From Bdellovibrio sp. (GTDB lineage: Bacteria; Bdellovibrionota; Bdellovibrionia; Bdellovibrionales; Bdellovibrionaceae), in NCBI GenBank assembly GCA_019104905.1, contig JAHRXB010000061.1:1-13707 (forward strand): DNA of 13,707 bases. Reading direction: 5' to 3'. The translations under genes and the position numbers were made by a program. The notes below the pieces were generated by a model. That model was not told where the DNA came from and did no database searches. It worked only from the letters and a program-made list of their open reading frames with translations. This document shows, piece after piece, positions 3,053 through 8,111 of the stretch (the first letter of the stretch is position 1; each line of letters begins with the position of its first letter).

Positions 3053-4291
3053 TTACTGAACATCTGCAAAACTCACGCTATCAAACTTCAATCCAACAAG
3101 CTGATTCACCCAAGCTGCTGGCGAAGTTGCCTGAGCAGCAGGATGAAGACCGAAGGCATAGGCACCTTGAGCTGAAAGTTCGATCCCCGTATTCACCCCA
3201 CAGTCTCCGACGTTGGAGATATTGGTATGACAACGGTTGTTCGGCACCTCGATATACTTAGAGGCGTCAGCCAAATCGTTGCCAGTTTGAGTAGAGGCGT
3301 AGTAGTAGCGCGTCTTCAAACCTTGATTCAAATTTCCCTTGATCGTTGCAATACGTGCCGCGAACTGAGTACCATTATAAAGTGAGCTATCGTAGATATC
3401 GCTGGCAATCCCTTCAACCTGTGAGACTCCAGTGATTTCACCATTGGTCATAGATACCTGGGCCACAATTCGGTCATGGCGAGACCAGCCGCACGAACCC
3501 TGCTCGGCACACAAGAAGCGATCTGAACGACTTTCAAAGCGCAGCTTCCCGGTCAACAGATCAAAGCTTGCCGCATTCGCACCCGACTTATTCGGACTCA
3601 CTGCCGACTGATCATCTTCAGTTAAAAACTCGACCGTTGTGCCAGAAACCTTCGCCGCCAATCGATAAGTTCCAAATTCTTGCGACGTAATCGAAATCCC
3701 TGTGTCGTAGTAAGAATTAAAGAACGCTGGCTTAGAAGCTCGAACCGTCGCCACCATGGTACCAACTCCCATATTCGCAAGCTGGGAGGGGGTAAAACAA
3801 CTTGAATCAGCTACGACAGTAACTTGATGTTCCTGATTATCAAAAACCACTCCGGCTTTTTCGATAGCACAAGAGATCGCTCTGATGGTGTGCAAAGACC
3901 CTGGAATAGAATCTCCCGACGCTTCAGCGACTGAAAGCTTACAATAAAAAAGCCTTTGCGGATAATCCGGACTTTGAGTGTCGAGATAATTGCCGAGTTC
4001 ATCAATCGGCATCGCATGCTCATTGCAAAGCTGATTCACGAGATTGGACTGAGCTTGAATCTTGCCTTGTACCGCTTTGCCGTTCTGAACGGCGGACTGA
4101 CTTGCCAGGCCCTGTCCAACCTGGACAATCACCCCTTGCACAGCTCCCATCACCAGTGATGGTTTTTCGGCCGTGATCGGTTCAGATACTGGCGCTGAAG
4201 AACTCTCTTCTTTTGCCGCTTGGCATCCAGCCAAAACGAATGCGTATATCAGAACGCCAATACTGAGGATCTTATTCATCTGCTTATTCAT
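3053..4291 (-). CDS. Large lipoprotein of unknown function, probable sigma-54 target
   Basis: A 412-residue lipoprotein. Its signal peptide has K residues, a hydrophobic core and lipobox LAGC with C23 as the lipidated residue, followed by a Ser/Glu-rich linker (EESSSAPVSEP). The mature part is soluble, contains about eight cysteines (for example FLCAEQGSCGW), and looks like a mainly beta cell-surface or periplasmic protein. No catalytic motif or known domain is visible. The ATG at 4291 has AAGGAG six bases upstream and sits 44 bases from the predicted sigma-54 transcription start. The in-frame TTG at 4345 lies upstream of that promoter's start site and is rejected. The gene lies directly downstream of a sigma-54 activator gene on the same strand, which makes the activator its probable regulator. 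A terminator follows at 3032-3006. Confidence 0.85.
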   Translation of the reverse strand: MNKQMNKILSIGVLIYAFVLAGCQAAKEESSSAPVSEPITAEKPSLVMGAVQGVIVQVGQGLASQSAVQNGKAVQGKIQAQSNLVNQLCNEHAMPIDELGNYLDTQSPDYPQRLFYCKLSVAEASGDSIPGSLHTIRAISCAIEKAGVVFDNQEHQVTVVADSSCFTPSQLANMGVGTMVATVRASKPAFFNSYYDTGISITSQEFGTYRLAAKVSGTTVEFLTEDDQSAVSPNKSGANAASFDLLTGKLRFESRSDRFLCAEQGSCGWSRHDRIVAQVSMTNGEITGVSQVEGIASDIYDSSLYNGTQFAARIATIKGNLNQGLKTRYYYASTQTGNDLADASKYIEVPNNRCHTNISNVGDCGVNTGIELSAQGAYAFGLHPAAQATSPAAWVNQLVGLKFDSVSFADVQ

Positions 4292-4343
4292 AACACTCTC
4301 CTTGTTAAGGTTGCGCGCAATTGCGTTTGCGCTAACCCTTAAC

Positions 4344-4362
4344 AAAGCAAGAGCATGGCCAA
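4344..4362 (-). promoter_or_regulatory. Sigma-54 (-24/-12) promoter for the large lipoprotein gene
   Basis: Read on the minus strand, the bases are TTGGC, CAT, GCTC, TTGCT. The -24 element has TGGC (GG at 4360-4359), the -12 element has TTGCT (GC at 4348-4347), and exactly ten bases separate GG from GC. The most conserved RpoN positions all match, except ACG after TGGC, which is CAT here. Predicted start is near 4335, giving a 44-base leader before the ATG at 4291. Confidence 0.75.
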
Positions 4363-4401
4363 TCTCTAACTTGTGGAATTTATTAAAGTCTCAATATTAG
4401 G

Positions 4402-4427
4402 CGCCAACCATTGGTTGCAGGTTGGCG
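4402..4427. promoter_or_regulatory. Candidate upstream activator site, 8-bp inverted repeat
   Basis: CGCCAACC (4402-4409) and GGTTGGCG (4420-4427) are perfect inverted arms around a 10-base spacer, which itself holds a third TTGGTTG half-site (4411-4417). The repeat lies about 67-92 bases upstream of the predicted sigma-54 start, a usual position for an enhancer bound by a Fis-type domain. No T-run follows it on the minus strand, so a terminator for the activator gene is the weaker reading. Confidence 0.55.
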
Positions 4428-4445
4428 ACAACTTTTAGAGCAGAA

Positions 4446-5984
4446 TTAGGCAGCCTTCTTATTAAGTATCTTTCTGAGACCTTCCCGGGAAACTCCCAGT
4501 CGGCGAGCCGCCTCTGACTTATTGCCGAGAGAAGTCTGAATCACTCTTTGAATCATTTCCGCTTCAAAAGTTTCACGAGCCTCCCGCAAACTCATCTGTT
4601 CAAAGCGTTTAAAGGGATCCTCAGACAAAGGCACTGACACCAACTGCACCGCACTGCGATTGCGAAACTGAAAGTCATCCGGAAGTAGAACCGTGCGTTC
4701 TCCCGCCGACAGACACGCGCTTTCAATTTTATTTTCAAGTTCGCGAATATTCCCTGGCCAACTGTACTCAATCAAACGCTCCATTGCCTCGTCACTGATC
4801 GTACGAAGCTTCCAGCCTCGCTTTTGGTAAAGCTGCTGTATGATCGCAGAAGCTAACTCCGAAATATCCCCTTTTCTTTCACGCAAAGACGGCACCACGA
4901 GATTAACAACATTGATGCGGTAATAAAGATCCTCACGAAACTTCTCTTTTTGAATCTGCGTTTCGATATTCTTATTCGTGGCACAGATCAATCGAAAGTC
5001 CACAGCTTTGGGGGGCTCATTGGAGCCCAGTCTTTGCACTTTCCGTTCTTGGAGAACACGCAAAAGCTTAGCCTGCATCTCAATAGGCATTTCCCCGATT
5101 TCATCTAAGAACAAAGTTCCCCGATGAGCGAGTTCAATCTGCCCCTGACGCGGCAATGTCCCCGTGGCCGCCCCTTTCACGACACCGAAGAGCTCGGCCT
5201 CAAAAAGAGATTCAGGAATAGCTGCACAGTTGATGGCAATAAAAGGCCCTTCTCGACGAGACGAATGATGATGAGCCAGGCGAGCCACGACCTCTTTCCC
5301 GGATCCACTTTCTCCCGTAATCAGAATGTTCGAGTCGGACTTTCCGAAATCCTCAATGTGATCATAGATTTTTTGCAGATCTGCAGACTTTGATTTCAAA
5401 CTGACAGAAGAGATGCTCTTTCGCCAGATATTTTTACGGTGTTCAATCGCAGACTCAGAGTCCTCAGTCATTTGACTAATTTCGTAATTTTCAAAGGCCA
5501 TGGTCGCTAAAATAGAAAGAGCCTCTAAAGCATACTGATCGTGCTCGTCAAAATCCCCCTCGATCTTATTAAGAACTTCAATGACCCCCACCACCTTACC
5601 CTCTTTCCAATGGAGGGGCACGGCCAGAACCTTTTTCGTTCTATAGCCCGTCTTTTCATCGGCTGCAAAATAGAAGTCCTCATCTTCCTCAACTTGATTG
5701 CTATAATAACTTTTCTGGTCACGAAACACTTTTCCCGCAATCCCTTGGTCGGCGCTAATAACAATCGTGTGATTGCGAATACCTGTTGCAATGTAGTTGC
5801 TCAGATATTTCAGATGTTGTTCAATCTTGAATTGGGAATCAAAGAAGATGGCACCACGTTCGGCCCCTGTCGTTTGAATGCAAAGGTCCAAAATCCGCTC
5901 GATGAGATTCTCACCTTGCGCTCGTTCGAAAAACACTTGAGAAGAAGCACCTATAAACTTGAGATGATTATGCGATTTAGACAT
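4446..5984 (-). CDS. GAF-domain sigma-54 activator with altered GAFTGA motif
   Basis: A 512-residue bacterial enhancer-binding protein. A GAF sensor domain (about 20-170) is followed by an AAA+ domain with Walker A GESGSGKE (224-231), Walker B LFLDEIGE (291-298), arginine-finger region FREDLYYRINV (349-359) and WPGNIRELEN (409-418). It ends in a Fis-type helix-turn-helix (about 476-509, NKSEAARRLGVSREGLRKIL). There is no receiver domain, so activity is probably set by a ligand or redox state sensed by GAF. The loop that contacts sigma-54, normally GAFTGA, reads GAATGT (271-276), losing the key Phe. I chose the ATG at 5984, preceded by an AGGGG at very close spacing; a TTG at 6011 without SD would add 9 residues. 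A sigma-54 promoter lies just downstream before the lipoprotein gene, and another candidate lies on the divergent side. Confidence 0.92.
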   Translation of the reverse strand: MSKSHNHLKFIGASSQVFFERAQGENLIERILDLCIQTTGAERGAIFFDSQFKIEQHLKYLSNYIATGIRNHTIVISADQGIAGKVFRDQKSYYSNQVEEDEDFYFAADEKTGYRTKKVLAVPLHWKEGKVVGVIEVLNKIEGDFDEHDQYALEALSILATMAFENYEISQMTEDSESAIEHRKNIWRKSISSVSLKSKSADLQKIYDHIEDFGKSDSNILITGESGSGKEVVARLAHHHSSRREGPFIAINCAAIPESLFEAELFGVVKGAATGTLPRQGQIELAHRGTLFLDEIGEMPIEMQAKLLRVLQERKVQRLGSNEPPKAVDFRLICATNKNIETQIQKEKFREDLYYRINVVNLVVPSLRERKGDISELASAIIQQLYQKRGWKLRTISDEAMERLIEYSWPGNIRELENKIESACLSAGERTVLLPDDFQFRNRSAVQLVSVPLSEDPFKRFEQMSLREARETFEAEMIQRVIQTSLGNKSEAARRLGVSREGLRKILNKKAA

Positions 5985-6045
5985 ATCCCCTGTATCGGCA
6001 AAAACCGCCAACTTATGGAGGCTGCCAATGGGACTTTCTAGTATT

Positions 6046-6073
6046 GTGACAACCCCTGTGGGCGTTTCAAAAT
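6046..6073 (+). promoter_or_regulatory. Weak sigma-70-like promoter or imperfect activator dyad
   Basis: GTGACA (6046-6051), a 16-base spacer and CAAAAT (6068-6073) resemble a sigma-70 promoter. The same bases include an imperfect dyad, AACCCC and GGGCGTT, 64-80 bases upstream of the start predicted for the sigma-54-like promoter at 6105. Its arms only partly resemble the site at 4402-4427. The two readings are alternatives. Confidence 0.25.
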
Positions 6074-6159: not shown

Positions 6160-6342
6160 ATGGACACAACTCAAAAAGCCCGTCGTTTTGAGGAAATGGA
6201 ACGCGAACTTCGTTTTCTATGGCAGGAGGCTCATGAAGAAGTCATCGCAAGTATTAAAGAGCGCAAAATCAAGCAATACTGGGAGCTTTTCCGTGCCTAC
6301 AAAAAGCAGAAGCAGTTCTTGTTGGCTTTGGAGACAAACTAA
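6160..6342 (+). CDS. 60-residue charged helical protein
   Basis: A small protein with no signal peptide or membrane segment. More than a third of its residues are charged (ERELRFLWQEAHEEV, ASIKERKIKQYWELF), in a pattern that predicts one or two long amphipathic helices or a short coiled coil. The start is well supported: AAAGGAG lies seven bases before the ATG. It diverges from the sigma-54 activator gene across about 175 bases that hold a candidate -24/-12 promoter. It may therefore be part of the same small regulon, perhaps as a cytoplasmic partner or modulator; this is inference. No family recognised. Confidence 0.75.
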   Translation: MDTTQKARRFEEMERELRFLWQEAHEEVIASIKERKIKQYWELFRAYKKQKQFLLALETN

Positions 6343-7061: not shown

Positions 7062-7222
7062 TATACTTTAGCAATGTGACTATGTCATTTACCCGAAAAT
7101 CTTGCACAACTCGAACTCCCTTTTTAAGCTGCGCTTGGGTTGTTTGCGTTGTTCGAGAGAGCTTCAACAAATACCCCGTCGCCCCCGCAAAGGTTTCGGT
7201 CTTCTGCGGGGATTTCTTTTTT
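7062..7222 (+). ncRNA. Candidate small RNA or leader ending in an orphan terminator
   Basis: The gap 6997-7340 has no convincing ORF. A TATACT box (7062-7067, five of six bases, weak -35) could start a transcript near 7074, and an intrinsic terminator ends at 7222, giving about 145-150 bases. Inside, CTCGAAC (7110-7116) pairs with GTTCGAG (7151-7157), and AAGC pairs with GCTT (7126-7136) within that loop. It could be a stand-alone RNA or an attenuated leader of the cytochrome gene that starts at 7341. No known RNA family recognised. Confidence 0.35.
7183..7222 (+). terminator. Intrinsic terminator without an upstream gene
   Basis: CCCCGCA (7183-7189) pairs with TGCGGGG (7205-7211), extended by AAG with CTT across a one-base bulge. 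ATTTC and six T residues (7217-7222) follow. The T-run faces plus-strand transcription, yet the nearest upstream gene runs on the other strand. Confidence 0.65.
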
Positions 7223-7340
7223 CACTCTCTTGAATTCACCCCTAAGTTTACATTTACTAAATTTTCAAGCCCATCCTTTAATAAATTTGAATTGCCGGAA
7301 CATCCTCCAAACTCTAGCGTCTAGGCAAAAGGAGAAACTT

Positions 7341-8111
7341 ATGAAATCACTTCTGTTAGTTCTGTCACTATCAATTTGTAGCTCTGGCTTCGCGATGGAT
7401 CCAACCTCCCACAATCCCCTTGAATCCTGTATGAAGAAGATGAATCAAAATTTGAAAGCGATCGCAAGACAGGTGCAAGAACCGAGTCTGAACCAACAAA
7501 CGGCTCAATGGGCTGACAAACTTTCTCAGATCACCACTCAATGTAAAAGCAACGTGCCCGATGGAATCAACAGCCTTCCCGACAACGAAAGAGACACACG
7601 TAAAGCTCTTTACGAAGAAATGATGGATCATACGGCAGAACTCAGTGATCAACTTGCGGCAACCCTTCGTAAAAATGACAACCTCAAAGCTCAAAAGATT
7701 GTGGAAAGCCTTATTGCGATTAAAAAAGATGGCCATCAAGAGTTTAAACACAGCGATTTCACGTTGATGGCATATGATCTTAAGACCCTGATGAAACAAA
7801 TGGGCACCAATCTTAAGCTCATCACAACGCGAATCAACGATCCGGCTCAAAATGCCAACTCTGCAAAGCTGGCTGACGAAATGACTCAAGCCACTTTGGA
7901 GTCCAAAAAGCATATTCCGGGATCTATTTCTTCTTTGCCGGCCAGTGAACAAGCCGCTCGCAAGGAGCAATATGATAAAATGTTAGATGAAAGCGCGGGA
8001 TTGTCTCAACAACTAGCACAGGCCCTCAGAGCCAATGATACGGCCAAAGCCAAAGTTCTTCTTGAGCAATTAGGTAGTCTCAAAAAAGACAGTCATATTG
8101 AGTTTAAGTAA
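7341..8111 (+). CDS. Exported protein of two tandem cytochrome-b562-like domains
   Basis: A 256-residue protein with a signal peptide (1-18, cleaved after SGFA) and two copies of a four-helix cytochrome b562-like domain, about 27-136 and 147-256, with a 120-residue period. Each copy starts with a helix like the b562 N-terminus (CMKKMNQNLKAI and LMKQMGTNLKLI) and ends in KKDxHxEFK. Aligned to E. coli b562, the axial haem ligands M7 and H102 correspond to M31 and H132 in copy one and to M151 and H252 in copy two. Both pairs are 101 residues apart. There is no CxxCH, so haem, if bound, would be non-covalent b-type. The ATG at 7341 has AAAAGGAG six bases upstream. Likely role: periplasmic electron carrier or haem-binding protein. 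Haem binding is inferred from ligand positions only. Confidence 0.82.
   Translation: MKSLLLVLSLSICSSGFAMDPTSHNPLESCMKKMNQNLKAIARQVQEPSLNQQTAQWADKLSQITTQCKSNVPDGINSLPDNERDTRKALYEEMMDHTAELSDQLAATLRKNDNLKAQKIVESLIAIKKDGHQEFKHSDFTLMAYDLKTLMKQMGTNLKLITTRINDPAQNANSAKLADEMTQATLESKKHIPGSISSLPASEQAARKEQYDKMLDESAGLSQQLAQALRANDTAKAKVLLEQLGSLKKDSHIEFK

Follow-up and report, generated by a model that had tools for sequence, protein, structure and literature searches.

The window analysed here, i.e. the whole 13.7-kb contig taken from an 88%-complete Bdellovibrio genome (G000), carries on its minus strand a gene for a 512-residue regulator, a gap of 154 bp and a lipoprotein gene, in this order. A first-pass annotation made from the letters alone had described an activator gene, an inverted repeat, a -24/-12 promoter and a lipoprotein gene in this region, and all of these positions proved correct when the elements were re-located, as did the distance of 44 bases between the predicted transcription start (about 4335, placed about 12 bases past the promoter GC) and the lipoprotein ATG at 4291. 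The features considered below are as follows.

4446-5984, minus strand: regulator gene, 512 aa, ATG at 5984, with GAF, AAA+ sigma-54-interaction and Fis-type helix-turn-helix domains (Pfam and motifs)
5490-5912, minus strand: GAF sensor domain, residues 25-165 (Pfam GAF_2 and GAF)
5157-5174, minus strand: L1-loop codons for residues 271-276, with non-canonical GAATGT replacing GAFTGA; identical in 6/6 orthologous loci
4470-4577, minus strand: Fis-type helix-turn-helix, residues 470-505 (Pfam HTH_8), with the dyad as its presumed DNA target
4400-4429, minus strand: dyad, presumed enhancer, with 10-bp arms, a 10-bp spacer and a perfect 8-bp core at 4402-4427
4346-4361, minus strand: putative -24/-12 promoter TGGCCATGCTCTTGCT, with exactly ten bases separating GG from GC and a predicted start about 4335
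4302-4345, minus strand: extended 19-nt inverted repeat over promoter and leader, about -10 to +34, with an inner hairpin at 4315-4332
4298-4303, minus strand: Shine-Dalgarno AAGGAG of the lipoprotein gene (AACAAGGAGAG invariant in 6/6 loci)
3053-4291, minus strand: lipoprotein gene, 412 aa, apparent target, with an invariant lipobox Cys23

Two further reading frames were noted in the window. That at 6160-6342 encodes 60 residues of charged character, is divergent from the regulator gene and has tblastn matches in the four orthologous loci tested (72-79% identity along some 40 residues); that at 7140-8111 encodes a predicted exported protein in which two alike halves (KKMNQNLKAI... and KQMGTNLKLI...) can be distinguished by eye.

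The lipoprotein was found in six of 59 genomes (G000 included), confined to one of 34 genera, and close orthologues of the regulator (78-100% identity) are confined to those six, adjoining the lipoprotein gene and co-oriented with it, that of G003 being split into two pieces on two contigs. A profile search located the lipoprotein in seven of 24 genus genomes, the seventh match (G013) being weak and partial (E 1.8e-9), and gave no strong match in any of the 18 genus genomes beyond the six. For the regulator, the best match in the other 53 of the 59 genomes reached E 6.0e-77 or weaker, with 39-51% identity among the matches listed. The gap between the two genes aligns in all six loci, at 62-69% identity among the three more distant groups (70% for one pair), and the window lipoprotein shares just 58-60% identity with four of its five counterparts; the -24/-12 bases and the dyad are nonetheless kept in all six, so that their lack of conservation in orthologous loci, which had been named beforehand as an outcome that would count against a regulatory link, is not what is observed. 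An RpoN domain is encoded in 23 of the 24 genus genomes, as well as in the more distant genomes G149 and G167 described below, and one predicted RpoN-like gene, bd0843, is reported for strain HD100 (PMC3464611). None was found in the 88%-complete G000 assembly, most likely reflecting an assembly gap.

Within the lipoprotein, the lipobox Cys23 and eight further cysteines do not vary across 18 aligned rows, made up of the window sequence and 17 of its 24 matches. These 24 relatives were retrieved from 5.8 billion proteins, in a search limited to proteins sharing short words, and those with a named organism belong to Bdellovibrio. The lipoprotein matched no Pfam family, and its AlphaFold model (mean pLDDT 74.5) gave no match in the PDB at E <= 0.001.

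Pfam identifies GAF_2 (1.9e-13), Sigma54_activat (PF00158; 2.8e-64, 216 bits) and HTH_8 (3.1e-10) in the regulator, and a pattern search recovered intact GESGSGKE, LFLDE, ATN and FREDLYYR motifs, which we take to be Walker A, Walker B, sensor and arginine fingers, respectively. The protein accordingly combines the AAA+ domain, Walker motifs and arginine fingers of a bacterial enhancer-binding protein with a C-terminal Fis-type helix-turn-helix and an upstream dyad, which this domain would presumably bind. In the L1 loop, however, GAFTGA or an aromatic variant of it is replaced by GAATGT at all six orthologous loci, and the loop shows a one-residue gap relative to solved enhancer-binding proteins in three of the three alignments shown. 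The first-pass description of an ordinary sigma-54 activator consequently holds for the family domains and ATPase motifs but not for the loop. Recurrence of the same altered loop at six loci, together with the intact ATPase motifs, suggests an active motor and not decay.

Of 147 rows assembled for a tree of AAA+ domains, 27 were missed by the Walker A pattern and dropped, as were three with an unparsed loop, leaving 117 (loop columns retained), 56 without a loop aromatic and 61 with one. The aromatic-free loops comprise GAATGT (42), GVATGV (seven), GAATGV (three), GAATDV (two), GTATGT (one) and GTATGV (one), and one close homologue of the regulator, P0030, carries GTATGT. Forty-nine of the 56 form one clade with support of 100/100, the seven GVATGV proteins being placed elsewhere; the tree requires two changes to an aromatic-free loop, and the AU test does not reject a single clade (p 0.259). 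In an alignment of 47 rows, the Ala that replaces Phe never varies, nor does the Thr after it, an invariance that stems partly from the rows having been chosen mostly as aromatic-free.

By published rules (PMC3162934, PMC2941729, PMC7057263), as worded in passages of these papers, a GAATGT loop should stop the regulator from working with sigma-54: changes of the Phe or Thr mostly abolish sigma-54 activation, and such proteins are excluded from the sigma-54 activators (PMC3162934); the Phe of PspF is replaceable by Tyr only (cited in PMC2941729); and the loop Phe is described as consistently found essential (PMC7057263). A structural paper of 2025 describes L1 loops that surround the sigma-54 N terminus, with a steric role for the Phe between subunits (PMC12054792). 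The motif has also served as a filter, one genome survey having retained only GAFTGA-bearing sequences (PMC12316311) and another having set aside proteins with disabling loop changes (PMC3162934). A full-text literature search by loop motif, from which the bare word GAATGT was excluded as it is also a DNA word, returned a single paper with an aromatic-free motif, that on DVUA0100, whose loop is GVATGV and which is nonetheless predicted by its authors to work on type III secretion operons through their sigma-54 promoters (PMC4641369). Plasmid searches did not find the gene of this GVATGV relative. DVUA0100 is the one precedent found in print for an aromatic-free sigma-54 activator, and is itself a prediction.

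GG at -24 and GC at -12, with exactly ten bases between them and lying 5' of a gene, are present in all six loci and in G167, and CTTGC at -12 is likewise invariant across the six. The sigma-54 consensus is TGGCACG-N4-TTGCW; scored against it, with GG and GC required, the window promoter matches at 9 of 12 positions, a score equalled in 4.2% of 3000 dinucleotide shuffles of the 154-bp gap on one strand (P 0.042), and in the other five loci the shuffle P ranges from 1.8% (G023) to 12.6% (G003). Since five sites across both strands of the window score at least 9/12, the earlier label of a near-consensus sigma-54 promoter is not striking alone, whereas its exact GG/GC spacing, kept in 6/6 loci, stands. 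A second site in G002 and G006, located within the dyad, scores as high as the promoter. Column shuffling of the aligned loci gave the shared GG-N10-GC in 698 of 20000 trials (P 0.035), and in 687 of 20000 when four lineages were used; the hypergeometric P is 0.067 for GG and GC only, and 0.004 with eight columns picked after the alignment had been seen. A start-site map of strain HD100 has been published (PMC3627812).

The dyad core is a perfect 8-bp inverted repeat, CGCCAACC-N10-GGTTGGCG, at 4402-4427; its flanks match in part and widen it to 4400-4429. The repeat reported in the first-pass annotation is therefore real, and a 30-bp dyad of the form GNCGCCNACY-N10-RGTNGGCGNC occupies the same place in 6/6 orthologous loci, whilst the exact repeat is modest alone: 500 shuffles of the gap equal it in 7.4% of cases (P 0.074), or in 1.0% with shuffling restricted to the sequence 5' of the promoter. 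At the five remaining loci the exact repeat is unremarkable (P 0.21 in G003, 0.42 in G019 and 0.87-0.90 in G002, G006 and G023). The six-dyad pattern, which was built from these sites, has one mismatch-free match per carrier genome, always at this place, and none in the 18 other genus genomes; with up to two mismatches allowed, matches exceed a reversed-pattern control in only three of 24 genomes (G000, G003 and G011). From the single perfect match per carrier and the few genomes above control, the dyad appears dedicated to a single target.

Other roles for the sequences around the regulator gene were considered and rejected. A terminator function for the dyad is not borne out, as no T-run follows it consistently across the six loci and no terminator-like site was found. 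For autoregulation, conserved words resembling dyad half-sites upstream of the regulator gene in five aligned loci reach at most 8.5 bits, compared with 13.0-17.2 bits for the dyad arms, and are equalled at about a dozen places in the window, making this a weak lead. Words common to the five loci in 5985-6070 include ACGCC[CA]AC-like words and GTTGGC, as well as a CCGATA box that ends up about 8-10 bases from the activator ATG. This CCGATA is similar to the FliA -10 element that PMC3627812 describes at attack-phase promoters, although a poor -35 accompanies it. The regulator might correspond to bd1891, which the same source (PMC3627812) describes as an attack-phase regulator that has a FliA site; the position of the gene would allow this, but no FliA-like site better than two mismatches was found before the activator gene.

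The leader repeat was examined as RNA. Begun at -11, the leader folds with z of -4.2 in G000, -4.6 in G003 and -4.95 in G019 (0/200 shuffles each), whereas the G002-type leader gives z -0.35 (73/200 shuffles), i.e. a stable fold is present in three of the four sequence types tested; begun at the predicted +1, the G000 leader, with the inner hairpin alone, gives z -0.9 (41/200 shuffles). Letters of the outer arm differ in G019, and Rfam contains no match to the leader. As the outer 5' arm would be absent from an mRNA begun at 4335, we speculate that the repeat might mask the ribosome site solely in RNA that arises by read-through, which could silence such RNA with sigma-54 transcripts staying translatable.

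More distant clade members were sought in 290 genomes of the phylum (best five candidates each) and 140 of the order (best ten each), and among these best candidates two further strong members were identified. In G167, from another family of the order, a GAATGT activator gene is followed by an inverted repeat, a GG-N10-GC site and a lipoprotein gene. The repeat is perfect over 15 bp (0/500 shuffles), with letters unlike those of the window dyad; the GG-N10-GC site scores 10/12 (P 0.006) and is the sole site of at least 9 in 9 kb on both strands; and the lipoprotein, its lipobox recognised by eye, has no detectable similarity to that of the window (BLASTP E 1.0). G167 thus holds the same layout built from different parts. 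G149 has the same GAATGT loop, no lipoprotein neighbour and no clear target, the next gene being family-X polymerase-like by eye; sigma-54-like sites lie just past its activator gene and before a gene that is pilin-like by eye. The latter site (L105:10647, minus strand) scores 10/12.

Retention of promoter and dyad in the orthologous loci and the layout in G167 support a local one-target circuit, as had been proposed in the first-pass annotation; taken as a whole that proposal is borne out in part, since the comparison favours it, the single statistics are modest and the activator loop is not GAFTGA. We lean, slightly, towards a sigma-54 circuit of this kind, activated despite its loop by a non-canonical, aromatic-free enhancer-binding protein. 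The regulator would bind the 30-bp dyad through its Fis-type helix-turn-helix; on receipt of a signal by the GAF domain its AAA+ ring would remodel the sigma-54 RNA polymerase poised some 50 bp downstream, at the -24/-12 promoter; and the neighbouring lipoprotein gene would be switched on. The L1 loop, GxATG[T/V], would engage the sigma-54 N terminus with the aromatic and one position missing and, having lost these, would have to grip it differently from PspF or NtrC. The wider proposition, that a class of enhancer-binding proteins in the Bdellovibrionota (with GVATGV relatives elsewhere) drives sigma-54 polymerase through an aromatic-free, one-residue-shorter L1 loop GxATG[T/V], we regard as nearly balanced between true and false, tilting marginally to the latter. 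Against the circuit are to be set the loop change, judged by published criteria, the modest statistics, the equally scoring site inside the dyad of G002 and G006, the absence of a clear target in G149 and the failure to find RpoN in G000.

A different division of labour would leave the promoter real but driven by a canonical GAFTGA activator encoded elsewhere, with the neighbouring regulator binding the dyad as a repressor, an antagonist or a subunit of mixed rings. GAATGT lacks the residue that passages of PMC3162934 and PMC2941729 present as needed for contact with sigma-54, and candidates for such an activator are at hand, in that each carrier genome holds 12 to 14 matches to the activator query (the orthologue included) and all 22 weaker matches that could be parsed, out of 24 loci fetched, have GAFTGA or GSFTGA. 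This explanation sits less well with an altered loop that is the same at six loci alongside intact ATPase motifs; the 18 genus genomes without the gene pair are, moreover, also without a perfect dyad match, which indicates that the dyad goes with this regulator and not with shared activators. We consider it unlikely, if still credible. That the regulator instead acts in the manner of VpsR, TyrR or Caulobacter NtrC on a promoter of the sigma-70 family, the GG-N10-GC being fortuitous or vestigial, is suggested by reports of relatives with a defective or missing GAFTGA working on sigma-70 promoters (PMC10274813, PMC3162934) and by the modest promoter statistics, but GG/GC spacing is kept in 6/6 loci and the same promoter type recurs in a second lineage (G167). 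A simple consensus scan of 4250-4470 found no sigma-70-like site, though sigma-70 promoters of Bdellovibrio may deviate from that consensus, and the NtrC cases, as reported, are loop deletions, whereas here the loop is kept minus one residue; this reading we judge quite unlikely.

Control might also be mainly post-transcriptional, the long hairpin of an RNA made by read-through from the activator gene hiding the ribosome site, and promoter and dyad being incidental. The low fold z in G000, G003 and G019 and the pairing of the outer arm beside or over the Shine-Dalgarno sequence speak for such control, yet the fold is not kept in the G002-type leader, where promoter and dyad are kept, and the leader has no Rfam counterpart, making this very improbable. 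The sigma-54 circuit with an aromatic-free activator, if correct, has several implications. The conserved phenylalanine would no longer count as universally required, and the motor would need some other means of holding the sigma-54 N terminus; survey filters based on GAFTGA would miss real regulators; and the GAATGT class would offer a natural test of how an AAA+ ring pulls the sigma-54 N terminus. With one regulator, one dyad, one promoter and one lipoprotein, the locus is in addition a compact Bdellovibrio circuit to test.

Amongst known systems, the regulator resembles the canonical GAF-AAA+-Fis proteins of the NorR/NifA type in domain order, ATPase motifs, Fis-type helix-turn-helix and the position of a dyad 5' of a -24/-12 promoter, and its top solved relative is the Nif-specific regulatory protein 9qq6, over residues 77-432. 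It differs from them in having GAATGT and not GAFTGA, in an L1 loop one residue shorter and in a single neighbouring lipoprotein as its apparent target. VpsR, TyrR, HupR and the NtrC proteins of Rhodobacter and Caulobacter are similarly described as being without a working GAFTGA motif (PMC3162934, PMC10274813); these, however, are reported on or assigned to sigma-70 promoters, whereas the regulator adjoins a conserved promoter with -24/-12 elements. DVUA0100 of Desulfovibrio vulgaris Hildenborough shares with the regulator an aromatic-free loop and a predicted action at neighbouring sigma-54 promoters (PMC4641369), but the passages describing it give it a long N-terminal region of unknown kind, name no GAF domain and assign it type III secretion operons as targets, in place of the single lipoprotein gene seen here.
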